Source of the DNA: Gammaproteobacteria bacterium
Lineage (GTDB): Bacteria > Pseudomonadota > Gammaproteobacteria > Steroidobacterales > Steroidobacteraceae
Direction of reading: 5' to 3'
Assembly: GCA_013289615.1 (NCBI GenBank)
Contig: JABCZO010000010.1
Coordinates: 1 to 64,000 of the forward strand
DNA: 64,000 nucleotides
Made by a program: the position numbers and the translations under genes. Below are positions 17,366-33,098 of the stretch, piece by piece. Position 1 is the first letter of the stretch. The number at the start of each line of letters is the position of its first letter. The notes beneath the pieces were generated by a model, which had not been told where the DNA came from, ran no database searches, and saw nothing but the letters and a program-made list of their open reading frames with translations.

Positions 17366-18556
17366 TCACATGGGTAACACCGTGGCATTCCAGCCGCCGG
17401 CAAACATCGACTCGGCGTTGCGACGATAGATCTTGTCGATGACCGCTCGAGGCAGATGCAGGCCGCGGAAGCGCTGCGCCAAGTCTGCGGAGTGCATCGG
17501 CTCGGAAGTCGCCAGGAAGCGCCAATCCTCCAGCCATGCGGCGTGCACGTCGGCCAGCGCGCGTGCATCCGTGTCCGCCGGACCGTAGGCATCGTCGCTG
17601 CCGTAGAGGACCCGATCCTGGTATCGAAGCAGGAATTGCCGCACCTTGTGCGGGTTGCGCGCCGCCTGGTATTCGAGGTGCACCAGGCGTGCGGCGAGGT
17701 CGACGTTGGCCTGGGGGAAGCGATCGAGAAACTGCGCTACTCTGTCGACGTCCCATTCGAGCGATGCCAGATGCACGGCATCGAAGCGCAGCGCCGGGTG
17801 GTCGCTCAGCATCCGGTCGCGAGCGGCCAGGATCGCATCGTGCGAGGGCATCTCGGGATGCCGGTACATGTAGTACTGGGGGTGCTCGCGAAAATACTGC
17901 CGGTCCGAGCGCACCGTCATCTGATCGTATGGCAACCAGCAGTTGAGCGGTTCCGCCTGGTGGGCGAGCAGCACCAGGTGACGGCGCTCGAGATCGGCGA
18001 TGATGGGCTCGAAGCGCCGGTCATCGATCATCACGTAGCGGCCATCGGGATCCTGCAGCGCCATGCCGATGTTCTTCCAGATCTTGATCCCGACCGCGCC
18101 CGCCTGTACGGCGGCATCGATCTGATGCAGCGCGCCTTCAGACCAGTCCGGCGCCTCGAAATGCTGTACCGAAAACGCCGCGGCGAACGCTACGCGTCCG
18201 GGATAGCGCTGCCGGAGCGATATGGCTGCGCGCTGCTGCTCCGACAGAGAAGGAAAATCCGGATAATCGACGTTGATGGTCAGGATGCGGAAGTGGTCGC
18301 GGATCGCCTGCGCCATGAATTGCGCGCCGTCGCCATGAATATGCACATGCGCATCGATCTTCTCGACTCGCCGGAAATCCTCGCGCACGTAGTAGTGCGC
18401 AGTGTCGTCGCTCGGCGCGCCGGCAGCGATTGCACTGGCACCGCAGAACGCGAGCAGAACGGGTAGTACCGGCGTCAGCGCGCGCAATGACTCATACCAG
18501 CCGAACCTCGACCCCCCGCTGGCGCAACTCATCGACTGCCGCCGCCGGCGCGCCAC
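17366..18556 (-). CDS. Amidohydrolase family (amidohydrolase_2-like), exported
   Basis: KIDAHVHIHGDGAQF metal motif, later conserved H/D (LYGSDDAYGP); hydrophobic N-terminus; true start likely downstream since the ORF overlaps the regulator by 65 nt. Confidence 0.75.
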   Translation of the reverse strand: MARRRRQSMSCASGGSRFGWYESLRALTPVLPVLLAFCGASAIAAGAPSDDTAHYYVREDFRRVEKIDAHVHIHGDGAQFMAQAIRDHFRILTINVDYPDFPSLSEQQRAAISLRQRYPGRVAFAAAFSVQHFEAPDWSEGALHQIDAAVQAGAVGIKIWKNIGMALQDPDGRYVMIDDRRFEPIIADLERRHLVLLAHQAEPLNCWLPYDQMTVRSDRQYFREHPQYYMYRHPEMPSHDAILAARDRMLSDHPALRFDAVHLASLEWDVDRVAQFLDRFPQANVDLAARLVHLEYQAARNPHKVRQFLLRYQDRVLYGSDDAYGPADTDARALADVHAAWLEDWRFLATSEPMHSADLAQRFRGLHLPRAVIDKIYRRNAESMFAGGWNATVLPM

Positions 18557-19277
18557 GGTCGGTGATCAGCAGTTGAATCTGTTCGACCTTGGCGATCAGC
18601 GAGATATTGCGGCGCACGAGCTTCGAGGAATCCGCCACCACGACCACCTGCCGGGCGATGCGGATCATCTTGGCATTGAGCTCGGCTTCCTGCAGATGGG
18701 GCGTCATGACCCCGATTTCAGGATCCAGCCCATCGGCGCCCAGGTACAGGCGATCGGCCTGCAGATAGTCCAGCGCCGCTTCGGCCATCGGGCCCGACAG
18801 TGAATTGGACTCGCGGCGCAGGATGCCTCCCGGCACGATCAGCCGCACCGACGCCACGTCCATCAGCAGCGCGGCCACGTTCAGCGCGTTGGTGATGACG
18901 TTGATCGAGTTGAGCTCGGCCTTGCGCAACGCGCGCGCGATCTCGGCGGTGGTGGTGCCGGAGTCCAGGATGATGGTTTCGCCGTCACGAATCAGCGCCA
19001 CGGCGGCCTGGGCGATTCTGACCTTCTCGGCATGATGCTTGAGCTTTTTGACATCGAGCGGCTCGTCGTCCTCCTGGCGCAGCAGCGCGCCGCCGTGGGT
19101 GCGTACCAGCGCCCCGGCGGCTTCCAGCGCCGACAGATCCGCGCGCACCGTCACCTGCGAGGTGCCGAAGCGCGTCGCCAGCGCCTCGACGGTGACGCGC
19201 CCTTCTGCGCGCAGGAACTCGCAGATGCGCCGTCGGCGCTCCTCGATCAGCAGCCCGCCTTCGATTGCGTTCAGCAT
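18492..19277 (-). CDS. agaR: DeoR/GlpR-family transcriptional regulator, AgaR-like
   Basis: LIEERRRRICEFLRAEGRVTVEALATRFGTSQVTVRADLSALEAAGALVRTHGGALL HTH; LDSGTTTAEIARAL sugar-phosphate site; Aga specificity inferred from neighbours. Confidence 0.8.
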   Translation of the reverse strand: MLNAIEGGLLIEERRRRICEFLRAEGRVTVEALATRFGTSQVTVRADLSALEAAGALVRTHGGALLRQEDDEPLDVKKLKHHAEKVRIAQAAVALIRDGETIILDSGTTTAEIARALRKAELNSINVITNALNVAALLMDVASVRLIVPGGILRRESNSLSGPMAEAALDYLQADRLYLGADGLDPEIGVMTPHLQEAELNAKMIRIARQVVVVADSSKLVRRNISLIAKVEQIQLLITDRGAPAAAVDELRQRGVEVRLV

Positions 19278-21373
19278 CAGACCGGTATCGCCTCGAGCAG
19301 CAGGGCGCCACGGAAGGCCAACGCCAGGCTGTTGCGTGGCCCGCCGATATCGCCCAGGTCCCGGTCATTGAAGTAATCGCGCACGCGGTAGCGGCCGGCG
19401 CGCAGCCCGCGCAGCGTCACCGGCCCGCTGAACTCATGCGCGTAAAAAGCATAGTAGAAGCGACCGTCCTTCTCGACCACATGCGTCTCGGGCTTGTCGA
19501 AGCCGATGTCGTACAACTCGCCGCGATAGATGCCCTGCGGCAGCCGACGCTCATTGTACAACGCGATCCATTTGCGCCAGAGCGTCTCGCGCGCGCTCGT
19601 CAGCAGAAAGGAATCCTTCGGCTTTGGATCGCGCGGCCAGGTGAATTTGGTCGAGATGATGCCGCCGATGCCGACGGTGGATGCAAAGTCATCCCCGCCG
19701 TCGCTCAATTCGACATGATCGCCGGCAAACGCAGCGCTCGGGCCCATCAGCGCCTTCAGGGTCTTGCCTTTGAGCCGCACCTGCCAGGACGACTCGGGAT
19801 CGGACGCCGGCGCCTGATTGAACGAGCGCATATTGAAGAACGAGTAGGTCGTGCCGCAGGGACACAGCTCCACGACCGCGTCCGGATTGAGGCGCACGGC
19901 CGTCTGATAGATCGCCTGGAAGAAATCCTGCAGCTTCTCGACCGACTCCTCGGGCCGGGCATGGCGGTGCGCGGGATTGAAGCACGGTGCCACGCCGTTC
20001 AGGTGCTGGCCATCGATCTTGAGTCCCGCGTAGCCCCACTCGCCGATGAATTTGCGCACCAGCCCCAGCGTGTAGTCGATCGTCGCATCGTACGCCGGGC
20101 ACAGATAGAAGCAGTTCCACCACGAGATATTCTGCACCGCGCCGTCCCTGTCGAGCAGCAGCAGGTCGGTGTGATCGTGCAGCAGATCAGAGCCGGGTGC
20201 CGCGGCCAGCGGCGCCCACCACAGCCGCGGCTTGAGATCCTGCGAGCGGATACTCTGCACCAGCTGGCGCATGTCGGCGTCGGCGCGCGGGTATTTGTCG
20301 CGGTTGGGATTCCAGTCACCGACATTGGACTGCCAGCCATCATCGATGACCGCCCAGCGCAGTCCCAGGTCATGCACCTTGGGTAACGTATCGGTAATCA
20401 GCTGCACCGTGCAGTCGCGCTCATAGCCCCAGGCACACCAGATCGGCTCGTAGGCGGCTGGCGGCGGCTGCGGCGAGGCGACGCCCCGGTCAGCCATCAG
20501 GCGACGATACGCATCCAGCACGCAGAAGTAATCGCCGCTGTGGGTGGCGATGAAAGTTTGCGGCGTGTCGAAGCGCTCGCCGCTGCCCAGCACGCGCTCG
20601 ATCGGCTGCGTGATCGAAAGCGCAACGCCGCTGGCGTCGCAGCGCAACGGCAGCCAGACCTGCAGCGGCGTCAGCTCCAGATGCCCCACGGCAAGCCCGC
20701 GATCGCGCCGCCACACATCGACGATCGGGGTGCCACCACCGTAATCGGAGGCCTCCATACCCATGAAATTCGGCTGCTGGAAACCAGGCCGTACGGCCTG
20801 GACCCAGTCGCGACGGTCGGCATGCGTGCTGCCGCAGTAACTCCAGAACGGCGGCCCACCACTGCCGGGCGGCGCATCGTGCGCACTCGCCGGCGGCAGA
20901 TGCAGCGAAGCGCAGGTCCAGCGACGAATGGCGAGCGGCTGCGGGGTGAGATTGCGATACGACACGCGATACAGCGCGAACCCCGGATAGCGCTCGAATA
21001 AACTGACCTCCAGCGACTTCTCGATGTGCGAGTCCGACACGCCGACCAGTCGCAGCTGCAGGCCGGGACCGAAGGGCCCCTCGACGCGCTGCCGGGATTG
21101 CTCACGCAAGGCAAATTGATCGACGCGCCGGCCATCCTTGAGCTCCAGACTCTCGGCGGCGGCCCACGTGGTCAGGTGCGAGATCCGCGATCGCATCCCG
21201 GCATCGAATTCGATCTGCAGGCGCTCATCGCTCAGCACGGCCATCGGCGCGGCGGCGCGCGAGCGCTGTGGCAACGCCTGCGCCGGCGTGCCCAGCAGCG
21301 CGCTGCCCGAGGCGACACCCGCGCTGGCGGCCCATTGCAGGAATCGACGTCGGCTGGTGCGATGCTGCTTCAT
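19277..21373 (-). CDS. GH36-type alpha-galactosidase / alpha-N-acetylgalactosaminidase, Tat-exported
   Basis: 698 aa; SRRRFLQWAASAGVA Tat signal; WAVIDDGWQSN, GYAGLKIDGQHLNG, VELCPCGT clan-D glycosidase motifs. Confidence 0.8.
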   Translation of the reverse strand: MKQHRTSRRRFLQWAASAGVASGSALLGTPAQALPQRSRAAAPMAVLSDERLQIEFDAGMRSRISHLTTWAAAESLELKDGRRVDQFALREQSRQRVEGPFGPGLQLRLVGVSDSHIEKSLEVSLFERYPGFALYRVSYRNLTPQPLAIRRWTCASLHLPPASAHDAPPGSGGPPFWSYCGSTHADRRDWVQAVRPGFQQPNFMGMEASDYGGGTPIVDVWRRDRGLAVGHLELTPLQVWLPLRCDASGVALSITQPIERVLGSGERFDTPQTFIATHSGDYFCVLDAYRRLMADRGVASPQPPPAAYEPIWCAWGYERDCTVQLITDTLPKVHDLGLRWAVIDDGWQSNVGDWNPNRDKYPRADADMRQLVQSIRSQDLKPRLWWAPLAAAPGSDLLHDHTDLLLLDRDGAVQNISWWNCFYLCPAYDATIDYTLGLVRKFIGEWGYAGLKIDGQHLNGVAPCFNPAHRHARPEESVEKLQDFFQAIYQTAVRLNPDAVVELCPCGTTYSFFNMRSFNQAPASDPESSWQVRLKGKTLKALMGPSAAFAGDHVELSDGGDDFASTVGIGGIISTKFTWPRDPKPKDSFLLTSARETLWRKWIALYNERRLPQGIYRGELYDIGFDKPETHVVEKDGRFYYAFYAHEFSGPVTLRGLRAGRYRVRDYFNDRDLGDIGGPRNSLALAFRGALLLEAIPV

Positions 21374-21459
21374 GCGCTGACCTTTTCCAGACTCGTCATT
21401 ATTGCAGGCCGGGCGGTAATGGTTGCGGTGCCGCGCGTTCCCGGTTTCATTCCTTTCAC

Positions 21460-21562
21460 TTTCGACCCTGCAGTTTATCTTGACAGATTCGAAGACATAC
21501 GAAATATTATAGGAAGATAAACGAAATATATAGGCGTGCTTTTACTTTCGTTTTCCTTCAGA
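21460..21562. promoter_or_regulatory. Intergenic cluster of TTTCGT-type operator half-sites (candidate AgaR sites)
   Basis: CACTTTCGACC (about 21460), CATACGAAATATTATAGG (about 21496-21513), AAACGAAATATATAGG (about 21519-21534) and ACTTTCGTTTTCCTTCA (21544-21560) between the divergent arms. Confidence 0.5.
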
Positions 21563-21584
21563 TAACATAAATAGGGAACCGACC

Positions 21585-24506
21585 ATGCGCGTGAACCAGC
21601 GGCACGTTTACGTAGCGCTTCTGCTCATTGGTTTGCTGAGCGCGGGCCTGCAGACCGCTAGCGCGGAAGACCCGCAGGGCACGACCCCGAGCAGCGCTGC
21701 GAGCACCCCACCGACCGAAGCGCAGCTCGAAACGGTTGTCGTCAGCGGCCTGCGCGAGAGCCTCGCCAAATCGCTCGAACAGAAGCAGAACGCCAGCGTC
21801 GTGCAGGATTCGATCAACGCGCTCGAGCTCGGCCGCTTTCCGGACGACGACGTCGCCGACGCTCTGCGCCACATCACCGGGGTCTCGATCACCCGCACCA
21901 CCGGCGGCGAAGGACAGTATGTTTCGGTGCGCGGCCTGGGTCCGGCATACAACATCGTCACACTCAATAACCGCATTCTCGCCACCGACGACGACGGGCG
22001 CGAGCTCGCGTTCGACGTACTGCCCGCCGACCTGATCTCCGGCGCCGATGTGTTCAAGTCTTCGCAAGCCTCGGCGCTGGAGGGCAGCATCGGCGGAACC
22101 ACGGACATGCGATCGGCACGGCCATTTGACAACCCCGGCTTTCATACCGCGGCACGCATCGAAACCAACTACGACGACATGTCGCAGTTCTGGGGCAAGA
22201 AGGGCTCGGTGTTCGTCAGCGATACCAATTCGGCCGGTACGCTCGGCTTCCTGATCGGCGGCGTGCTGTCCGATACCCGGACACGCACCGATTCGCTCAA
22301 CTACAACACCTACGACAGCGCCAATCCCGGCGTCTGGCCGCTCTCCGGGCCCGCCAGTCAGCCGGTGATCGCGGAGTGCTGCATCTCGTTCGGTTCGGTG
22401 ATCGAGAAGAAAGAGCGCTCGGCGCTATCGGGCGCGCTCGAGTGGCGGCCCAGCGACACACTCCACGTGACCCTCGACGGGCTCTATTCGCGTTTGAATG
22501 ATCCTCAGGTCGCCTACGACCAGGCGTACTACCCGGATTTCACCTTCGACGCGAATGGCAATCCCGAGTGGTCCAACGTCGTGGTCAAGAACGGCTACAT
22601 CACCTCGTTCACCGCCAACACGTTCACGCCTGAAATCGTCAACCAGACCATCGCCCGCCGCGTCACCACCTCACTGCTCGGCTTGAATGCCACCTGGCGG
22701 CCGACCGAGGACTTCTCGGTCGATGCCGACGTCTATCAGTCCAAGGCCAATCGGCCGGAAGGCGGCAACGATGCCTTCGTGACCTCGGGCCTGGAATCGG
22801 CCACTCCCTACAACCAGGACATCATCAACTGGACCAACAATCCCAATGGCGGATTACCCTATATTTCCGTGACGCTGCCCAATGGCCAGAACTATGCCAA
22901 CGCGCTGGCCTCGGGTGCGTTGAACAACAATTTCTGGACTGCGCACTACACCGGCCTGAACGGCAACAGCATCCACGACAAGGTCAGCGGCGGAACGCTC
23001 GACGGCACGCTGAAATTCCAGGACGCCGGCGCGCTGCGCCAGCTGCGCTTCGGCGTCGCAGAGACCCAGCGCCACAAGACGCGTGACGATTTCGACAACG
23101 ACTGGACCGGCGGGTCAAGCCAGTACGACTTCTACACCACCCCGACGGGCGCCACCCCGATCACCTATGGCTCGCTCGGTGCCAACGTGATCTCGACCAC
23201 GACTTTTCCCAACTACATGCAGGGGGCGGGCGGGAGCTTCCCGACGACCGTCGCTGTCTTCAATATTCCGAACCTGCTCAGTGCGCTTCAAAAGCTCAAC
23301 GGCCAGCCGAACACGTACGTCGCTGGCGCCCCGAACTACAACTTCGCCGCTTCGCTGCCGCAGTTCAACGCGGTGAATTCCTACAACGTGCGCGAAACTA
23401 CCTCGTCGGCCTACTTCGAGGCCGACTTCGCAGGTGCGAAGTGGTCTGGCAACATCGGCGTGCGCGTAGTTCACACCAGCACCACGGCCAGCACCGCGGT
23501 CAATGAAATCCAGACCATTACGATCGCCAACACCGCCGACCCGACCAACCCGGCCATTGTCGGTTACAGCAACCCGACGCCGACCACGTCGTCCGGCTCG
23601 TACACACTGCCGCTGCCGTCGCTGAACTTCACCTACCGCCTCAAGCCAGATCTGCAGCTGCGCTTCGGTGCTTCGGAAACCATGGCACGGCCGGAACTGG
23701 ACCAGCTTGCCCCGACCCGCACCGACAACACGCTCAATCGGGTCTACGAGGTCACCTATGCGGGCAGTTCGACGCTGAAGCCGATTAAGGCTTATTCGGC
23801 CGATGTATCGGTCGAGTGGTATTACCAGCCGAAGTCGGCGCTGACGCTGGCGATCTTCGGCAAGGACATCAGGGATTTCATCACGACCGGGACGCAAAAC
23901 AACGTCAATATCGGCGCGCAGGGATTCTTTAATGGCGGCACCACACCGGTGCCGGTGCTCTACACCGTCTACACGCCGATCAACGGCGACAAGGGTTACG
24001 TCAGCGGATTCGAGTTTGGCTTCCAGCACATCCTGCCGAGCGGCTTTGGCGTGCATGGCCAGTACACGCACACCTGGAGCCAGGCCTACGTCGCGGGGCA
24101 GTTCGTCGGTCAACTCGAGGGGGTATCGCCGAACAGCGCGTCGTTGGGCGTGCTGTACGAGACCGGCCCAATCAGCGCCAACGTCAACTGGGATTACGAC
24201 GGTCCGTCGGTGGAACAGACATTCACGGAGATCCAGGGCGTGTCGGCGTACCAGGCCAGCTTCTCGTGGGTGACCGCTCAGCTGTCGTACGAGCTCGTGA
24301 AGGGGTTCAAGATCTACCTTGAGGGTAAAAATCTTGCCAATGCCATCGCCAGGAGCTACCTCGGCAACCGGCAAGATGCGGTCTGGGCCAGTGGTACTAC
24401 CAGCACCAGCACGACAAGCTCCAGCAGCGGCACCAGCAGCGCCGTCGGCCAGGGCTATACTGCTTTCGGCCGCATGTACACCCTCGGCCTCAGCTACCGA
24501 TTCTGA
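21585..24506 (+). CDS. TonB-dependent outer-membrane receptor
   Basis: 973 aa; ETVVVSGLRESLAKSLEQKQNASVVQDSINALELGRFPDDDVADALRHITGVSITR plug; C-terminal aromatic ...YTAFGRMYTLGLSYRF. Confidence 0.93.
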   Translation: MRVNQRHVYVALLLIGLLSAGLQTASAEDPQGTTPSSAASTPPTEAQLETVVVSGLRESLAKSLEQKQNASVVQDSINALELGRFPDDDVADALRHITGVSITRTTGGEGQYVSVRGLGPAYNIVTLNNRILATDDDGRELAFDVLPADLISGADVFKSSQASALEGSIGGTTDMRSARPFDNPGFHTAARIETNYDDMSQFWGKKGSVFVSDTNSAGTLGFLIGGVLSDTRTRTDSLNYNTYDSANPGVWPLSGPASQPVIAECCISFGSVIEKKERSALSGALEWRPSDTLHVTLDGLYSRLNDPQVAYDQAYYPDFTFDANGNPEWSNVVVKNGYITSFTANTFTPEIVNQTIARRVTTSLLGLNATWRPTEDFSVDADVYQSKANRPEGGNDAFVTSGLESATPYNQDIINWTNNPNGGLPYISVTLPNGQNYANALASGALNNNFWTAHYTGLNGNSIHDKVSGGTLDGTLKFQDAGALRQLRFGVAETQRHKTRDDFDNDWTGGSSQYDFYTTPTGATPITYGSLGANVISTTTFPNYMQGAGGSFPTTVAVFNIPNLLSALQKLNGQPNTYVAGAPNYNFAASLPQFNAVNSYNVRETTSSAYFEADFAGAKWSGNIGVRVVHTSTTASTAVNEIQTITIANTADPTNPAIVGYSNPTPTTSSGSYTLPLPSLNFTYRLKPDLQLRFGASETMARPELDQLAPTRTDNTLNRVYEVTYAGSSTLKPIKAYSADVSVEWYYQPKSALTLAIFGKDIRDFITTGTQNNVNIGAQGFFNGGTTPVPVLYTVYTPINGDKGYVSGFEFGFQHILPSGFGVHGQYTHTWSQAYVAGQFVGQLEGVSPNSASLGVLYETGPISANVNWDYDGPSVEQTFTEIQGVSAYQASFSWVTAQLSYELVKGFKIYLEGKNLANAIARSYLGNRQDAVWASGTTSTSTTSSSSGTSSAVGQGYTAFGRMYTLGLSYRF

Positions 24507-24520
24507 AAGGCATTGCGCCC

Positions 24521-25390
24521 ATGACCGCCAGCCGCTGGCTGCGCTATGCGTTGCTGACCACGTTGATGTGGGGCGTCTGGGGCGCCTTCAGCTCGTTGCC
24601 CAGCGAGCATGGCTTTCCGGACACGCTGACTTACGTGGTCTGGGCGCTGACGATGATCGCGCCCGCCGTGTACGCGCTGGCAAGGGCCGGTTGGCGGCTG
24701 CAGCATGATCCGCGTTCGCTACTGCTCGGACTTGCCATCGGGCTGCTCGGTGCCGGGGGACAGATGTTGCTGTTCCGCGCGCTGACCGTCGGGCCCACTT
24801 ACCTGATCTTCCCGATCGTCTCGCTGTCCCCGGTGGTCACGATCCTGCTGTCGCTGCTGCTGCTGCGCGAGCGCACCGGCATGTTCGGCTGGGCAGGCAT
24901 CCTGCTGGCCGTGATTTCGCTGCCGCTGTTCGACTATTCGCCGGACAGCTCGACCCAGCACTACGGCGGCTGGTTCATGCTCGCACTGGCGGTCATGCTC
25001 GCCTGGGGGCTGCAGGCCTACTTCATCAAGCTGGCCAATCGCAGCATGAGCGCCGAGAGCATTTTCATCTACATGATGCTTACCGGGCTGGCGTTCATTC
25101 CGGTGGCCCTGGCGCTGACGGATTTCTCGCGATCGATCAATCTGGGTATCACTGGACCCTGGCTGGCCGCCTCGGTGCAGATCCTCAACGCGATCGGTGC
25201 GCTGCTGCTGGTGTATGCGTTCCGCTACGGCAAGGCAATCGTGGTGTCGCCGCTGGTCAACGCCGGCGCCCCGCTGCTGACGGCGCTGATCGCGCTGGCA
25301 GTGGCCGGCAGCCTGCCGGGTCCCTACAAACTGGCGGGCGTTGCTCTCGCGCTGAGCGGCGCGCTGCTGCTGTCGCTGCAACCCGAATGA
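24521..25390 (+). CDS. DMT/EamA-family transporter
   Basis: 289 aa, about 10 TM segments, two EamA-like halves; ATGA overlap with the next gene. Confidence 0.85.
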   Translation: MTASRWLRYALLTTLMWGVWGAFSSLPSEHGFPDTLTYVVWALTMIAPAVYALARAGWRLQHDPRSLLLGLAIGLLGAGGQMLLFRALTVGPTYLIFPIVSLSPVVTILLSLLLLRERTGMFGWAGILLAVISLPLFDYSPDSSTQHYGGWFMLALAVMLAWGLQAYFIKLANRSMSAESIFIYMMLTGLAFIPVALALTDFSRSINLGITGPWLAASVQILNAIGALLLVYAFRYGKAIVVSPLVNAGAPLLTALIALAVAGSLPGPYKLAGVALALSGALLLSLQPE

Positions 25391-26664
25391 ACGCCTTGCT
25401 CGAATTGCTGCGCGCTCACAAGTCCGGCAACCCAGTGGGCATCTGCTCGGTCTGCTCCTCGCACTCGCTGGTCATCGAGGCGGCGCTGCGCGAGGCCGAT
25501 TGCCAGGGCCGCTACGCGCTGATCGAGGCCACCTCCAACCAGGTCAATCAGTTCGGCGGCTATACCGGCATGCGACCGCTCGATTTCCAACACTACGTCG
25601 CAGGCATTGCCGCGCGCGTGGGGCTGCCGATGCAACGGGTGCTGCTCGGCGGCGATCACCTGGGACCGAACGTGTGGCGCAGCGAGCCCGCGGCCGTGGC
25701 GCTGGCGCGATCCGAGCAGCTGGTCGCGGACTACGTGGTGGCTGGATTTCGCAAGATTCACCTGGATTGTTCGATGAGCTGTGCCGATGATCCGGGCGCG
25801 CTGACCGACGCGCTCATCGCCGCGCGCGCCGCGCAGCTGTGCCGTGCCAGCGAAGCCGCGTGGCACGCCAGCGGCGGCGAGCCCCCGCTCTACGTGATCG
25901 GCACCGAGGTGCCGACACCGGGCGGCGCCGCCGAGGCGCTCGAATCGCTGGCCGTAACGACGCCGGCGGCCGTCACTGCGACGCTTGACGCCCATCGCGG
26001 CGCATTCCTGGGCGGCGGACTGCAGCACGCGTGGCCGCGCGTCGTCGCGCTGGTGGTACAGCCCGGGGTGGAGTTTGATCATCACAAGGTGATCGACTAT
26101 GAGCCCGAGCGGGCACGCGAACTCGCGCAGCGCATCGAGCGTGTACCGGGCCTGGTCTATGAGGCGCACTCCACCGACTATCAGGCCCCTGCGGCACTCG
26201 CGGCGCTGGTGCGCGATCACTTCGCGATCCTCAAGGTGGGGCCGGGCCTCAGCTTCGCGCTGCGCGCGGCGCTGTGGGCGCTGGCTGATATCGAGCGCGA
26301 ACTCGACATGACGCCGGCCGAACCGTTGAAGCAGGTGGTAATGGAAGCGATGCGGCGCGATCCTCGCCACTGGCAGGCCTACTACACCGACGCGCGCTCG
26401 CAGCGCTTCGATCTGCAGTACAGCCTCAGCGATCGCATTCGCTATTACTGGAACGTGCCCAAGGTCGCAGCGGCTTGCGAGGCACTGATCGCGAACCTGG
26501 ACACCCGCCGCATCCCGTTGACGCTGCTGAGCCAATACCTGCCGCGGCAGTACGCGGCGATTCGGGCCGGTAGGCTCGTCAACGAAGCACGGGCGCTGCT
26601 GCTCGATGCTGTCGCCCAGGTCCTGCGCGACTATGACGGCGCCTGCCATCCACCCGGGGGATAG
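25387..26664 (+). CDS. agaZ: Tagatose-bisphosphate aldolase non-catalytic subunit-like (GatZ/KbaZ/AgaZ)
   Basis: NPVGICSVCSSHSLVIEAALREA...LIEATSNQVNQFGGYTGM...LGGDHLGPNVW...IHLDCSMSC. Confidence 0.9.
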   Translation: MNALLELLRAHKSGNPVGICSVCSSHSLVIEAALREADCQGRYALIEATSNQVNQFGGYTGMRPLDFQHYVAGIAARVGLPMQRVLLGGDHLGPNVWRSEPAAVALARSEQLVADYVVAGFRKIHLDCSMSCADDPGALTDALIAARAAQLCRASEAAWHASGGEPPLYVIGTEVPTPGGAAEALESLAVTTPAAVTATLDAHRGAFLGGGLQHAWPRVVALVVQPGVEFDHHKVIDYEPERARELAQRIERVPGLVYEAHSTDYQAPAALAALVRDHFAILKVGPGLSFALRAALWALADIERELDMTPAEPLKQVVMEAMRRDPRHWQAYYTDARSQRFDLQYSLSDRIRYYWNVPKVAAACEALIANLDTRRIPLTLLSQYLPRQYAAIRAGRLVNEARALLLDAVAQVLRDYDGACHPPGG

Positions 26665-26667
26665 AAC

Positions 26668-27840
26668 ATGGATGCCTTTGGATTGACGATGGCGCAGATC
26701 GACGCCGCGGGCGCGCACTGGACCGCGCGCGAGATCCTGCAGCAGCCGGACCTCTGGGCACAGATCGAGGACTCGCTCGCCGCCGACTTCGCGCGCCTGG
26801 CGGGGTTCCTCGAGCCGCTGCTCAGCCGATCCGAGCTGCGCATTGTGCTGACGGGCGCCGGCACCTCGGCCCACATTGGCAACTGCCTGGCGCCCGCGCT
26901 GAGGCGCATCCTCGGCCGGCGCGCCGACGCCATTGCAAGCACCGACCTGGTGGCCAGTCCGGAGAGCTACCTGGCGGCCGAGACGCCGACACTGCTGGTA
27001 TCGTTCGGCCGCTCCGGCAACAGTCCCGAGAGCGTCGCGGCAGTTGAGCGGGCAGACGCATGGGTGCGCGATTGCTGGCACCTGATCGTCACCTGCGACC
27101 CCGAGGGAGCGCTCTACCGGCGTGCGAGCCAGGCACCACACTGCTGCGCCATCCTGATGCCCGCGGCGAGCAACGACCGCAGCTACGCGATGACCTCGAG
27201 CTTCACCGGCATGTTGCTCGCCGCCGCACTTGCGCTGCGCACCGTGCCGGCCGACAGCGCACGAGCGGGCGGGCTCGCGCGGCTGGCACAGCAGCTGCTC
27301 GTCGATCGCCTGGCGCTGCTGCAGGAACTGGTAAGCGGCCGTGTCAGCCGCGTGGTGTATCTGGGCAGTAAGGAGTTCAAGGGGCTGGCACAGGAGGCCG
27401 CACTCAAGATGCTCGAGCTCACCGATGGTCGGGTGGTGTCCATCGCCGACTCGCCGCTCGGCTTTCGTCACGGACCCAAGACCATCCTGAATCCCGATAC
27501 GCTGGTGGTCGTCTTTGTCGGCAATGACGACTACGCGCGACAATACGACTGGGACCTCATCGACGAGCTGCGACACGATGCGGTCGCGGGGCGCGTGGTG
27601 GCGCTCGCGGCGCGGCCAGGCTCTGGTGCGCATCCGGACGATGTGATTCTGGAAACCCCACGGGATCCGATGGACACTTCCGATCTCGAACTGTGCCTGC
27701 CGTATGCCGTGTTTGCGCAATCCCTGGCGTTGCTGCGCTCGATCTCGCTCGGTCTACGGCCCGACAACCCCAATGCGACGGGCACGGTGAGTCGCGTGGT
27801 CACGGGTGTCTCGATCCATCCGTGGCGCGGCCGCGCGTGA
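26668..27840 (+). CDS. agaS: SIS-domain galactosamine-6-phosphate deaminase/isomerase, AgaS-like
   Basis: VLTGAGTSAHIGN..., LLVSFGRSGNSPESVAAVE..., SYAMTSSFTGML, GSKEFKGLAQEAALKMLELTDG...GFRHGPKT. Confidence 0.9.
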   Translation: MDAFGLTMAQIDAAGAHWTAREILQQPDLWAQIEDSLAADFARLAGFLEPLLSRSELRIVLTGAGTSAHIGNCLAPALRRILGRRADAIASTDLVASPESYLAAETPTLLVSFGRSGNSPESVAAVERADAWVRDCWHLIVTCDPEGALYRRASQAPHCCAILMPAASNDRSYAMTSSFTGMLLAAALALRTVPADSARAGGLARLAQQLLVDRLALLQELVSGRVSRVVYLGSKEFKGLAQEAALKMLELTDGRVVSIADSPLGFRHGPKTILNPDTLVVVFVGNDDYARQYDWDLIDELRHDAVAGRVVALAARPGSGAHPDDVILETPRDPMDTSDLELCLPYAVFAQSLALLRSISLGLRPDNPNATGTVSRVVTGVSIHPWRGRA

Positions 27841-28823
27841 ACACCTACCTCGGGGTCGATGGCGGCGGCAGCAAGACGGCCTTCCTACTGATCGACGAAT
27901 CAGGGCGGGTGCTGGCATCGCACACCGAAGGGCCCGCCTACCATCTCGAGATCGGCCTGCAAGCCCTGCGCACCATGCTCGCGCGCGGTATTCGCGCCAC
28001 ATTGGAGCAGGCGGGGCTGTCGCCCTCGCGCCTGGAGTTCAGCTTTCTCGGCCTGCCGGCGTACGGTGAGGACAGCCGCCTGGTCGCGGCACTGGACAGC
28101 GCCGCATCGCCGCCGCTGCTGCCGGAGCATTACCGCTGCGGCAATGACGCGGTGTGCGCGTGGGCCGGCGCCCTCGCCTGCCAGGACGGCATCAACCTGG
28201 TGGCCGGCACCGGCTCGATTGCCTTTGGCGAGTTCGGCGGCCGTTCGGCGCGCGCCGGTGGCTGGGGCGAGTTGTTCAGCGATGAAGGCTCGTCGTACTG
28301 GATCGCGCGCGAGGGATTGAACCTGTTCTCGCGCATGAGCGACGGGCGCGCGGCCCGCGGCCCGCTGTACCAGATCCTGCGTAGCCATTTCGGACTGCAG
28401 ATGGACCATGACCTCTGCGCCGCCATCTATGATCAGAATCAGATCCAGCGCAGCCACCTGGCAACCCTGTCGCCACTGATTGCCCAGGCGGCAGCGGCCG
28501 GCGATGCCCAGGCCTCGGCACTGTTCGCTCACGCAGCCGATGAGCTGGTAACGATCGTCGATGCAGTGCACCGTCAACTCGGGATTCCTGCGCAAGCAAC
28601 CATGTCGGTGTCCTACTCCGGCGGCCTGTTCCAGCAGCCCGAGCCGCTGCTGACGCGTGTGCAGAGGCGGCTTGAAAGCCAGGGCGCACGCTATCGCGTG
28701 CTGGCGCCGCGCCTGCCACCCGCCGCGGGCGCGGCACTCTACGCCGCCCGCATCAGCGGTGCGCCGCTCAGTGTGCAGGCGATCAGCGCACTGGAGCGCT
28801 CGCTCAGCGCAGCCACGCGCTAG
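27837..28823 (+). CDS. BadF/BadG-family (N-acetylhexosamine) kinase
   Basis: VNTYLGVDGGGSKTAFLLIDESG..., LVAGTGSIAFGE, GWGELFSDEGSSYWIAREGLN; GTGA overlap with agaS. Confidence 0.88.
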   Translation: MNTYLGVDGGGSKTAFLLIDESGRVLASHTEGPAYHLEIGLQALRTMLARGIRATLEQAGLSPSRLEFSFLGLPAYGEDSRLVAALDSAASPPLLPEHYRCGNDAVCAWAGALACQDGINLVAGTGSIAFGEFGGRSARAGGWGELFSDEGSSYWIAREGLNLFSRMSDGRAARGPLYQILRSHFGLQMDHDLCAAIYDQNQIQRSHLATLSPLIAQAAAAGDAQASALFAHAADELVTIVDAVHRQLGIPAQATMSVSYSGGLFQQPEPLLTRVQRRLESQGARYRVLAPRLPPAAGAALYAARISGAPLSVQAISALERSLSAATR

Positions 28824-28930: not shown

Positions 28931-31246
28931 TTACATGTCTCCCACGGACCGCAATGTCTTGTCCGAAAGGCTCGTCTCGCTCGGAAGTGCGGATAAGGCT
29001 TTGTCATCCAAAGAAGCGCGTACCAGCCGTTCGACTTCATCAATTGGTACCGGGCGGCTAAACAAGTAGCCCTGCGCCTGCTGACATCCCAGCGTCTTGA
29101 GTATCTCAAGCTGTTCCTTCGTCTCTACCCCTTCTGCACAGGTGATCATCCCAAAGGCGTTGGCAAGCTGAATGATGGTCGAAACGACCGTGGCGCTGGT
29201 TTCATCCATCCCGAGCCGGCTTATGAACGAGCGGTCGATCTTCAGCATATCGATCGGGAGTTGCGCGAGCCGGCTTAGCGAGGAGTAGCCGGTACCGAAA
29301 TCGTCGATCGCAACACGCATGCCCGCGGCACGAAGGGCTTCCAACTGCCCAATAACCGAGGCTGAGTCATCCAGAAGTGCGCCCTCGACGATCTCGATGT
29401 CAAGCCCATAGCCTGCACCGGAAGTGTCCGCGGCGATCTGCAGAAATTGCGAAGCGAACTGGTGGCGCCGCAGTTGCAGCGGCGAGACATTGACGGCAAT
29501 CCGAATCGGGGGCAGTCCGCCGCTCTTCAGGCGTTTGCAATCCCTGGCGGCTTGCTGCAACACCCATTCGCCAACTGCGACGATCATGCCGGTGGATTCG
29601 AGGATCGGGAGAAAGACTGCCGGTGGCACGATGCCATTCTCAGGGTCGTGCCAGCGCAGCAGCGCCTCCAATCCGATGATCCGTCCGCCCGCTATCTCGA
29701 TCTCAGGCTGGTAGTAGAGCAGGAACTGTTGTTCGGCAAGCGCCGTACTCAGGCGCTGCTCGAGCCCAAGGCGCTCCACGACTTCGGAGTTCATCTCCAG
29801 CCGGTGATGCAAGTATCGCTCGCCGGACTCCCTGGCCTTGCGCAGCGCCGCCTCGGCGTTCTGCAATAAAGTCGTTGCGACTTTCCCGTTCTCCGGAAAC
29901 TCTGCAAGTCCGAACTTGATCGCTATATGAATATCCCGCCCGTTCACGGATACCGGCGTGCTGAAAAGGGTGGTGAGCTGCTCGTCGAGTAGTCGCAGTG
30001 CGCGCTCTGAAGGGCCGGGTTGAGTAATTACCGCGGCAAACGTGCCGCCCCCCAGATTTGCAAGTTGATCAGTGTTGCCGAAATGGTGTTTCAGGCGGTC
30101 GGCGACACATTGCAGAAGCCTGTCCCCGACATGTCGGCCGACTGAGTCATTGATGACGCATAGCCTTTGGATATCCAACGCGATAACAGTCCGGATAGAT
30201 TCGGACTCCAGTTGTTGTTCGAGCGTGCGCGCGAGTCGTTCACAGAAGAGAGCGCGCTTGGCAAGGCCGGTGAGCGGATCGAAGTACGACAGAAACTCCA
30301 CCGTCTCGTGCTTTTGCAGATACTGGAGCGCGAACGAGAGGTTGGCCGTTATTTCTTGCAGTATCAGCAGCTCTTCGCCATCGAGCGTACCCTCCTCGAC
30401 GTTTCCGATGGTAAAGGCACCCACTGGGGTGCCATCGATGAGCAGCGGCAGGGAGGCCAAGGAGCGCATCCCCTCGGTGACGAGCCTCTCGGGGCTGCGA
30501 ACCATCGGCTCGAGTTCGGTCAGGGCGTGCCAGATGCAGATCTCGGCGGTGCGCATGGCCCGTCCGGTCACGCTGGTGTCGGCTGCTCGGGTCTTTGCCA
30601 CGTTAAATACCAGCGTCTTCATCTGCTCGTCGTTGAGGCCTGCCCAGGCAACTGGCCGGGCGGTGCGTGCGCCCGAATCGATCAGCACGATATATGCGCG
30701 GGTATATCCGCCCACGCCATGAGCGATGCGACAGGCTTCAGTCAGCAGCTCGGTGCGCGAGCGAATGCGAACAACAGCAGCATTGACGGCCGAGAGCATC
30801 TGCGTGATACGCGTGAGTCGCAAGACTCGTGCTTCAGCGTTGCGGCGCGCACCGCGCGCAATCGCATCCTCCAACGCGCGAGTAACGGCCGGAACAAGCC
30901 GCTCGGGATTACTCTTGAGTACATAATCGATGGCGCCGTTCTTCAGCGCCTGAATTGCGCGCTCCTCGCCAAGGGTGCCAGAGAGGAAAATGAAGGGGAC
31001 ATCCGGAGCATCGGCCGCTGCCGTTTTGAGTGCGTCGAAACCATCGAAGTGCGGTAGCGCATAGTCCGACAGAATCAGATCGGGCTTAAAGTCTCGTAGT
31101 GCCTCGCGAAAATCCGGTTCGGTCTCTACACGCTTCCATGTGCACGACAGGCCCGACTTCTTTAATTGTCTTATGGCTATTTCAGCCTCGGTGGCCACAT
31201 CTTCGACGATGAGTAGACGTACTGGGGTGTCCTCGGGTGTGCGCAC
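28931..31246 (-). CDS. Response regulator - GAF - (degenerate) GGDEF - EAL protein
   Basis: LLIVEDVATEAEIAIRQLKKSG receiver; ANLGGGTFAAVI at the GGDEF site; LEALLRWHDPENG and AIDDFGTGYSSLSRL EAL motifs. Confidence 0.9.
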   Translation of the reverse strand: MRTPEDTPVRLLIVEDVATEAEIAIRQLKKSGLSCTWKRVETEPDFREALRDFKPDLILSDYALPHFDGFDALKTAAADAPDVPFIFLSGTLGEERAIQALKNGAIDYVLKSNPERLVPAVTRALEDAIARGARRNAEARVLRLTRITQMLSAVNAAVVRIRSRTELLTEACRIAHGVGGYTRAYIVLIDSGARTARPVAWAGLNDEQMKTLVFNVAKTRAADTSVTGRAMRTAEICIWHALTELEPMVRSPERLVTEGMRSLASLPLLIDGTPVGAFTIGNVEEGTLDGEELLILQEITANLSFALQYLQKHETVEFLSYFDPLTGLAKRALFCERLARTLEQQLESESIRTVIALDIQRLCVINDSVGRHVGDRLLQCVADRLKHHFGNTDQLANLGGGTFAAVITQPGPSERALRLLDEQLTTLFSTPVSVNGRDIHIAIKFGLAEFPENGKVATTLLQNAEAALRKARESGERYLHHRLEMNSEVVERLGLEQRLSTALAEQQFLLYYQPEIEIAGGRIIGLEALLRWHDPENGIVPPAVFLPILESTGMIVAVGEWVLQQAARDCKRLKSGGLPPIRIAVNVSPLQLRRHQFASQFLQIAADTSGAGYGLDIEIVEGALLDDSASVIGQLEALRAAGMRVAIDDFGTGYSSLSRLAQLPIDMLKIDRSFISRLGMDETSATVVSTIIQLANAFGMITCAEGVETKEQLEILKTLGCQQAQGYLFSRPVPIDEVERLVRASLDDKALSALPSETSLSDKTLRSVGDM

Positions 31247-31269
31247 GATCGTCGTCCAGTCGTTGTGGG

Positions 31270-31710
31270 TCAGCTTGGCGGCCGATTCATGATGAGCCAG
31301 TAGTAGCCCAGGCGTGCGATCTCCTCGAATACCTTCTGCGACTCCACTGGCTTTACGATGTAACTGTTGACCCCCAAAGCGTAACTACGCACGACATCGG
31401 ACTCTTCCGAGCTTGATGTCAGCATGACGACTGGAAGAGTTTGCAGGGCAGGTGTTGCCCGAATGTCGCGCAGCACCTCGATCCCATCGACCTTCGGCAT
31501 CTTCAAATCCAGCAGCACCAGGCGCGGTCTGGCGCTTGCGCGACCCGCATAGCGGCCGCGGTGGTGGAGGAAATCAAGCGCCTCCGCTCCATCCTTCACC
31601 CACAGCAAGGGGTTACCGATGTTCGCTTTTTTCAGTGCACGCTGGGTCACCTCCGCATCCGTAGCGGAATCTTCCGCGAGCAGAATCTCGACTTCCTCGA
31701 CTTCGCTCAT
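31270..31710 (-). CDS. CheY/Rcp1-type response regulator
   Basis: EILLAEDSATDAEVTQRALKKANIGNPLLWVKDGAEALDFLHHRG...PRLVLLDLKMPKVDG. Confidence 0.92.
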   Translation of the reverse strand: MSEVEEVEILLAEDSATDAEVTQRALKKANIGNPLLWVKDGAEALDFLHHRGRYAGRASARPRLVLLDLKMPKVDGIEVLRDIRATPALQTLPVVMLTSSSEESDVVRSYALGVNSYIVKPVESQKVFEEIARLGYYWLIMNRPPS

Positions 31711-33098
31711 ACAAATGCCGCCTGTGGAAGGGTAAAAAAGAACTTCGCGCCGTGGTCAGGTTTGCCCTCTCCCCAGACACGGCCCCCATGACGACCAATC
31801 ACCCGCTGTACAATGGCGAGCCCGACGCCGGAACCTGGAAACTCATTGGCACCATGCAGGCGCTGGAATACCCTGAAAAGCTTGTCCGCATAGCGCATGT
31901 CGAAGCCAGCCCCATTGTCCTTGACGAAATACACGGCCTCTGATCCTTGAATGCAACCGCCGATTTCAATTCGCGGCGCAGCGATCTTGCTCGAGTACTT
32001 GACGGCATTGGCGATCAGATTGACCCACACGTGATGCAGGAGGACGGCGTCGCCACATGCGCTTGGCAGCTCATGCACGAGGATCTGCGGCGCGGTGCCG
32101 GTGTAAGCCGCGAGCACTTCCCGCACGGCTCGCTCCGCGCCCAGCCTGGGATTAATGTTCAGCGCGTCGATGGGCTCTCGACCCAGGCGTGAGAAAGCCA
32201 GCAGGTCATCAATGAGGCGGCCCATTTGCTGCGCGCCGTCACGAACCACAGCGATGTAACGGCGCCCCTCGTCATCAAGTTTCGCTGCATAATCCTCTTG
32301 GAGCATGAGCGCGAAACTGTCGATCGCGCGCAGCGGCGAGCGTAGATCATGCGAGACGCTATAGGAGAAGCTCTCCAGTTCCTTGTTCGAAGTCTGCAAC
32401 TCGATCGTCTTGCGCTCGAGCCTGTCTGCGAGTTTCTGGCGCAGGTGCAACTCGCGCCGCAGTCGAAAAAGACCCAGTCCGACTATCAGAATGACAACTG
32501 CGAGCAGTGCTCCGCACGCGCCGATGAGCCTGCGCTGGCTCAGCTCGTCAGCCAGAAGCCGCTGCCGCAGCAGCGAGCGCTCCTCGCCGGCCATTGCATC
32601 CAGCAAGTCGCGAAGTTGATTGACCTGGCCGCGAGACTGACCGCTCGCAATGAGCCTTTGGGCAACTTCGAAGCCCCCGGTCTGCCGGGCGAGTATCACC
32701 GCATTCATAAACTCAATGCGTGCGACGGCGTGCGAGTTGACAATGGCCAGTCGCTCCTGCTGGGCGCTATTGTCTGCGGTGAGTGTCCCCAGATCATGAA
32801 GGCTGGATTGAAGGTCGGTGATTGCTCGATCGCGTCCGGCCATGCTCGTGGGATCCCCGGTGATCACAAACTCCTGAGCCACGGACAGTGCCTCATCGGA
32901 GGAGGCTTTCGCGTGCTCCACGGTCTCCAGCACGATATGCGTATGATCAACCCAGTGCGTGCTCTGTATAAAGTGCGTCACTGAGTACCAGGCGAGCAAA
33001 GTGACCATGCACATGAGCACGAGGGCTGCGATGAACGCGACAGTGACAGCGTCTTCAATTGACAGTCGGGACACAAGTTTTCTTGCAAGGATTTTCAT
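31707..33098 (-). CDS. CHASE3-type sensor histidine kinase
   Basis: N-terminal TM and CHASE3-like helical region; SYSVSHDLRSPLRAIDSFALMLQEDY H-box; NAVKYSSK, DNGAGFDMRYADKLFRVFQRLHG. Confidence 0.9.
   Translation of the reverse strand: MKILARKLVSRLSIEDAVTVAFIAALVLMCMVTLLAWYSVTHFIQSTHWVDHTHIVLETVEHAKASSDEALSVAQEFVITGDPTSMAGRDRAITDLQSSLHDLGTLTADNSAQQERLAIVNSHAVARIEFMNAVILARQTGGFEVAQRLIASGQSRGQVNQLRDLLDAMAGEERSLLRQRLLADELSQRRLIGACGALLAVVILIVGLGLFRLRRELHLRQKLADRLERKTIELQTSNKELESFSYSVSHDLRSPLRAIDSFALMLQEDYAAKLDDEGRRYIAVVRDGAQQMGRLIDDLLAFSRLGREPIDALNINPRLGAERAVREVLAAYTGTAPQILVHELPSACGDAVLLHHVWVNLIANAVKYSSKIAAPRIEIGGCIQGSEAVYFVKDNGAGFDMRYADKLFRVFQRLHGANEFPGSGVGLAIVQRVIGRHGGRVWGEGKPDHGAKFFFTLPQAAFV

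Follow-up and report, generated by a model that had tools for sequence, protein, structure and literature searches.

A putative galactosamine-centred variant of the Aga pathway with an exported amidohydrolase, an EamA transporter and a stand-alone AgaZ in a Steroidobacteraceae genome

The window analyzed here is a 64,000-nucleotide stretch of contig JABCZO010000010.1 from a genome of the Steroidobacteraceae, and all coordinates of the locus refer to it. Positions 17366-28823 hold eight genes in two divergent arms, which are read here, with a confidence modestly above even, as a variant of the proteobacterial Aga pathway that is built around galactosamine (GalN) and has deacetylation before import. 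A TonB-dependent receptor would bind or import glycans carrying alpha-linked N-acetylgalactosamine (GalNAc) or GalN, the candidate substrates being alpha-1,4 GalN/GalNAc polymers (Pel, fungal galactosaminogalactan) or O-glycan-type ends. An exported amidohydrolase would take off the N-acetyl group outside the cytoplasm, a GH36 alpha-galactosaminidase exported by the twin-arginine translocation (Tat) pathway would free GalN, and an EamA protein would carry it across the inner membrane. In the cytoplasm, a BadF-family kinase would convert GalN to GalN-6-phosphate (GalN-6-P), AgaS would deaminate/isomerise this to tagatose-6-phosphate (Tag6P), and AgaZ alone, acting as a 4-epimerase, would produce fructose-6-phosphate (Fru6P). 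The reading draws on the gene content and conservation of the locus, the active-site residues, the structural kinship of the GH36 enzyme with FpGalNase, the lack of GatY partners and the genome-wide co-occurrence of the genes. The initial annotation had described an outer-membrane-to-cytoplasm pathway for glycans containing alpha-GalNAc. The alpha-linked galactosamine-type substrates are retained, but GalN is more likely than GalNAc to be the sugar that enters the cell.

The GH36 enzyme (19277-21373, minus strand; PF02065) carries the twin-arginine motif RRRFLQ, in agreement with the Tat export initially assigned to it. Its closest matches in the PDB are the FpGalNase entries 8x1b and 9awt (E values of 5e-69 and 3.5e-67), with the alpha-galactosidases far behind (6lcj, 7e-16). 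Structural comparisons of an AlphaFold2 (AF2) model built from 30 relatives (predicted local distance difference test score, pLDDT, of 87) with FpGalNase, including entry 9ayu, showed template modelling scores (TM-scores) of 0.83-0.89 and r.m.s.d. values of 2.5-2.8 Å (0.84-0.89 and 2.5 Å for 9ayu), vs. TM-scores of about 0.6 with the alpha-galactosidases. The functional residues reported for FpGalNase (W317, D346, D347, W387, K461, D463, C513 and D532; PMC11762096) are all conserved, and Lys452, Asp454, Cys506 and Asp525 are invariant among the aligned relatives. Cys506 corresponds to C513, which is essential in FpGalNase (PMC11762096), and Asp525 corresponds to D532. The nucleophile is the invariant Asp454 of a K-x-D motif, at which the automatic alignment was off by two columns. 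By sequence and by model, the enzyme is thereby nearest to the alpha-galactosaminidase FpGalNase and stands apart from the alpha-galactosidases. In its gut system, FpGalNase cooperates with a separate GalNAc deacetylase and cleaves GalN after the deacetylation (PMC11762096).

The candidate deacetylase is encoded at 17366-18556 (minus strand, start tentative). The initial annotation was silent on export of this amidohydrolase; the window protein has a hydrophobic leader and its relatives have Sec or lipoprotein-like leaders (judged by eye), which point to export. PF04909 is matched by 42 of the 47 aligned relatives, and the window protein itself has no match at an E value of 0.01. Direct Pfam and NCBIfam scans gave neither a family name nor a deacetylase signature for the window protein, and a PDB profile search with the alignment returned no match; the structure was therefore predicted. 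The AF2 model (pLDDT of 92.5) has the fold of the amidohydrolase-2 enzymes. Asp39, His41, His43, His170, His233 and Asp292 (numbering of a 367-residue construct) are invariant in all 47 sequences, and the HxH...H...H...D metal-site pattern of the amidohydrolases is complete. The fold and the metal-site pattern resemble those of PF04909 enzymes such as ACMSD, the dihydroxybenzoate decarboxylases and LigY. However, the TM-score is only about 0.5, and the protein differs from these enzymes in being exported and tied to GH36 and amino-sugar genes.

Among 296 genomes of the order surveyed for co-occurrence, 40 have AgaZ, 30 the amidohydrolase and 26 the GH36 enzyme. Both the amidohydrolase (30/30, Fisher 7e-33) and the GH36 enzyme (26/26, Fisher 2e-27) occur only in AgaZ-positive genomes. 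Within these, the amidohydrolase tracks GH36, being present in 24 of the 26 genomes with GH36 vs. 6 of the 14 without it (p = 0.0012). The amidohydrolase and GH36 genes of G023, a one-contig genome, lie side by side at a distance of 1.57 Mb from the AgaZ block. Of the 10 genomes lacking the amidohydrolase, 7 have a NagA-family gene no more than 6 kb from AgaZ, vs. only 1 of the 30 having it (p = 4.7e-5). The genus g31 contains both arrangements: G280 has the amidohydrolase and GH36 with no NagA match, whereas in G191, which lacks the amidohydrolase, NagA stands beside AgaZ. In eight genomes, each at least 92% complete, the amidohydrolase and AgaZ are present and NagA is unmatched. As a plain genome count, the absence of NagA (8/30 with the amidohydrolase vs. 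0/10 without) is suggestive but weak, and the linkage count is stronger. The confinement of the amidohydrolase to AgaZ genomes, together with the contrast in NagA linkage, suggests that this enzyme takes the place of AgaA/NagA on the outer side of the membrane. Thus, of the deacetylase initially regarded as missing, it holds that the locus has no NagA or AgaA, but the exported amidohydrolase probably fills the role.

The EamA/DMT protein (24521-25390, plus strand; PF00892) occupies the permease position, as initially noted, and orthologues with 54-79% identity adjoin AgaZ/AgaS in Proteobacteria, Bacteroidota and Calditrichota. A comparison with solved structures gave very weak matches only, to NIPA2/SLC35 proteins, and a literature search found no published role for EamA or amidohydrolase-2 proteins in galactosamine use. 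Aga regulons without agaA imply the use of GalN and a GalN transporter (PMC4694137), and the EamA protein, working in the import direction, is the proposed GalN importer here. The BadF/BadG-type kinase (27837-28823, plus strand; PF01869) has amino-sugar kinases (8zo3, 2ch5, 2ch6) and a hexokinase as PDB relatives and would act on GalN (or GalNAc). Its start is preferably the GTG at 27837, which overlaps the agaS stop, rather than the mechanical open reading frame start at 27693. AgaS (26668-27840, plus strand), a SIS protein of the type of the GalN-6-P deaminase/isomerase that is a trait of the Aga pathway, scores 470 bits against TIGR02815 (cut-off of 529) and has 3c3j as the best PDB match (E value of 8e-96).

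A search with the EamA protein gave 187 related places; the 80 loci that were retained span Gamma-, Beta- and Alphaproteobacteria, Bacteroidota and Calditrichota. Where EamA and AgaZ are both present (68 loci), direct neighbours are EamA-AgaZ in 51, AgaZ-AgaS in 53 and AgaS-BadF in 54. EamA-AgaZ-AgaS-BadF thus forms a single unit in about 50 loci of Proteobacteria, and the locus is a conserved system for amino-sugar catabolism. Its cultured carriers include Luteimonas, Pseudoxanthomonas, Asticcacaulis and Roseateles. Most of the better-covered proteobacterial loci add the TonB receptor, AgaR, GH36 and the amidohydrolase, and the near relatives L034, L035 and L037-L039 keep the gene order of the window exactly. 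Recurrence of the block in dozens of genomes puts this gene combination far outside what chance would give, and the design is widespread rather than peculiar to this genome. That the loci represent a widespread, undescribed proteobacterial route, with outside deacetylation by a new amidohydrolase-2 family together with GH36, an EamA/DMT importer of GalN and a stand-alone AgaZ, is a tentative proposal, held at slightly under even confidence.

Variant loci were also observed. In L126 (14436-15869) and L127 (5883-7202), the place between the TonB receptor gene and AgaZ is taken by a GH27 gene rather than GH36, with the amidohydrolase still following BadF and overlapping the end of its gene. In L088 (263-8876), L052 (2-8577) and L096, EamA-AgaZ-AgaS-BadF is joined to a second gene set comprising GH27, a regulator, a large GH36 and a NagA-like deacetylase, the latter found in all three, with a NagP-like permease and an ROK kinase seen in L088 and L052; these loci look like GalNAc and GalN pathways side by side. 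Distant amidohydrolase and GH36 genes are adjacent in L053 and L110, and a ResA/TlpA-like thioredoxin gene follows GH36 in a locus of Shewanella sp. SG41-4 (L106, 14149-14643), which also has an orthologue of the amidohydrolase.

AgaZ (25387-26664, plus strand) matches TIGR02810 above the cut-off (616 bits) and the PDB entries 2fiq and 3txv, and is homologous over its whole length to the 4-epimerases GatZ and KbaZ (E. coli; Agrobacterium, Sinorhizobium). A 2025 study reported Tag6P/Fru6P 4-epimerase activity in vivo for E. coli GatZ and KbaZ, cited growth of Agrobacterium on galactitol via GatZ, and proposed C20, E44, D87, H88, E171, H257 and K279 of GatZ as epimerase residues (PMC11907403). 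All of them are present here, as Cys23, Glu47, Asp90, His91, Glu174, His261 and Lys283. They are conserved in 71/71 homologues, with the position of Glu171 being Glu in 68 and Asp in 3. Unlike GatZ and KbaZ, AgaZ is here part of an amino-sugar pathway in a genome with no GatY/KbaY above the cut-off. Profile searches of 28 locus-bearing genomes found GatY/KbaY above the cut-off in none and no TIGR01858 match whatever in 16; a LacC/1-phosphofructokinase-type kinase was found in one. The Tag6P kinase and the AgaY/GatY/KbaY aldolase, both traits of the Aga pathway, were not found in the window's own genome, which is 83% complete. The initial annotation had remarked on their absence from the locus and called for a genome search. 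In the rest of the genome, the only close aldolase match (C17) stands in an apparent inositol operon, on the basis of which a GatY/PfkB pair elsewhere was rejected. This operon (L122, 4472-9062, contig 17) has the order iolD-iolC-iolB-iolJ, judged by eye from order and sequence. Because of the reported GatZ/KbaZ activity, the conserved residues and the lack of GatY/KbaY above the cut-off, AgaZ is best read as a stand-alone Tag6P 4-epimerase, an assignment from sequence that is highly probable. With such an epimerase, the Tag6P kinase and GatY are unnecessary, and their absence would no longer be a puzzle (PMC11907403). In the older scheme, AgaZ is a Tag6P kinase or assists a GatY/KbaY aldolase whose gene lies elsewhere, in line with older annotations and with a kinase role that has been proposed (PMC12118421, PMC4694137). 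The profile counts and the reported epimerase activity make this very unlikely, as do some Bacteroidota loci that lack AgaZ and have a PfkB kinase together with a class II aldolase, as expected of alternative routes. These two genes recur instead of or beside AgaZ in Bacteroidota and Calditrichota loci, accompanying EamA in L044, L053, L059, L108 and others. AgaZ is absent from four of the eight such loci, which suggests that either Tag6P route can stand in for the other.

The locus may instead encode a GalNAc pathway in which the GH36 enzyme acts as an alpha-N-acetylgalactosaminidase, GalNAc is imported by EamA, BadF is an AgaK-like GalNAc kinase and chromosomal NagA deacetylates GalNAc-6-phosphate, with the amidohydrolase acting otherwise on the glycan. 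Shewanella uses a TonB receptor, the permease AgaP and the kinase AgaK for GalNAc (PMC2996990, PMC12118421), E. coli NagA deacetylates GalNAc-6-phosphate (PMC12118421), and most genomes carrying the locus also have NagA. However, eight near-complete genomes with the locus have no NagA match, NagA is linked to the AgaZ block chiefly in genomes lacking the amidohydrolase, and the enzyme nearest to GH36 acts in concert with a separate deacetylase, all of which renders this pathway rather unlikely. A GalN-only pathway would start from a substrate already partly deacetylated, such as Pel, which is mainly an alpha-1,4 GalN-GalNAc repeat (PMC9135694), with the amidohydrolase as an accessory that removes another acyl group or opens a lactone. 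PF04909-type folds indeed cover many reactions other than deacetylation, and some AgaZ loci lack the amidohydrolase. Nevertheless, deacetylation accounts better for the strict tie with AgaZ and for the exchange with NagA-family genes, and no lactone-making dehydrogenase was found among the scanned recurrent gene clusters, so that this explanation is improbable.

Several observations weigh against deacetylation outside the cytoplasm followed by GalN import. The window's own genome has NagA on another contig, in an N-acetylglucosamine (GlcNAc) cluster, and because it keeps this gene, GalNAc-6-phosphate could still be deacetylated in the cytoplasm. The fold neighbours of the amidohydrolase in the PDB, for the most part decarboxylases, hydratases and C-C hydrolases, include no known sugar deacetylases, so the case for deacetylation is a genomic one, and a literature search found no published Amidohydro_2 GalNAc deacetylase. 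Five of the seven NagA-linked genomes belong to one genus, and the linkage events are thus fewer than the counts; some AgaZ genomes carry the amidohydrolase without GH36. No GH36 N-acetylgalactosaminidase is among the matched solved structures, so that the enzyme may prefer either GalN or GalNAc; FpGalNase Y464 is not kept in it. EamA proteins can be exporters. The activities assigned to the proteins of the locus are predictions from sequence, models and genomic context. As for the NagA gene itself, it was rejected as a member of the galactosamine locus since it sits in a GH20/GntR/TonB GlcNAc cluster. This apparent nag/chitin cluster (L123, 1456-9862, contig 6 of the same genome) contains genes for a GH20-like protein, a TonB receptor, a GntR regulator, a SIS deaminase, NagA, a tryptophan-halogenase-like protein and a cupin (all except NagA assigned by eye).

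Comparisons with known systems showed that the locus shares the TonB receptor, a permease outside the phosphotransferase system, a separate kinase and AgaS with the Shewanella Aga variant (PMC2996990, PMC12118421), and AgaR and AgaZ with other Aga pathways. It differs from the Shewanella variant in that EamA replaces the GGP-family permease AgaP (PMC2996990), and an exported amidohydrolase lies beside an exported GH36 in a locus that has no cytoplasmic AgaA/NagA-type deacetylase. The FpGalNAcDeAc/FpGalNase pair of Flavonifractor plautii, which converts the A antigen, has the same structural type of GH36 and a separate deacetylase, and the deacetylate-then-cleave logic proposed here is the same. 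However, the candidate deacetylase here is of the PF04909 type; FpGalNAcDeAc was not returned by the sequence search or among the listed fold matches, which involved no direct comparison of the two.

All eight open reading frames of the locus were found where the initial annotation had placed them, and Pfam and NCBIfam profile scans reproduced its family assignments. Its statement that NagA/AgaA, GatY and Tag6P kinase genes are lacking within the locus is likewise correct. The gene overlaps described there are present as ATGA between EamA and AgaZ (25387-25390) and as GTGA between AgaS and BadF (27837-27840), but AgaZ and AgaS are separated by 3 bp. In the other arm, the GH36 and AgaR genes share a single base (19277), and the amidohydrolase and AgaR genes overlap by up to 65 bp. 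The plus-strand arm begins with the TonB-dependent receptor (21585-24506; TIGR01782 with 534 bits, PF00593 and PF07715). The AgaR-like DeoR repressor (18492-19277, minus strand) matches PF00455 and PF08220, and NF040755 with 252 bits vs. a cut-off of 260. Both arms diverge from a 211-bp region (21374-21584), in which CTTTC-type repeats at 21453, 21459 and 21545 lie both upstream and downstream of a TTGACA at 21480. The repeats of the region are labelled D1-D3 and I1, and the arrangement of operators and TTGACA is conserved in seven relatives. CTTTC is reportedly the AgaR operator consensus, said to have been described by Leyn et al. in 2012. An AgaR-type regulator with CTTTC-bearing operators, a trait of the Aga pathway, is thus present, and AgaR would repress both divergent promoters. 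The operator core TTTCGTTTTCNTTC has its only exact match in the genome at this locus, and a genome-wide operator search for a wider AgaR regulon found, beyond the locus, one site with one mismatch and nothing more. Next to the locus (28931-33098, by eye) are genes for a histidine kinase and for a response regulator that has GGDEF/EAL domains; these were not seen as recurrent neighbours in the related loci.

The overall pathway is of the known Aga kind. The new part would be the exported amidohydrolase as a candidate deacetylase, the EamA protein replacing the GGP permease, and the end of the pathway free of kinase and aldolase; a literature search found no publication describing the three together. 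If correct, the proposal would change the textbook view of the GalNAc/GalN route in many bacteria of soil and freshwater, with an epimerase in place of the kinase and aldolase and with deacetylation outside the cytoplasm. It offers a testable function for a conserved family of EamA transporters and would bring in an exported deacetylase and a type of amino-sugar importer that are both new. The deacetylase and the galactosaminidase would form a new pair of the kind of enzymes used for blood-group A conversion, which may be relevant to the breaking of Pel or galactosaminogalactan biofilms.

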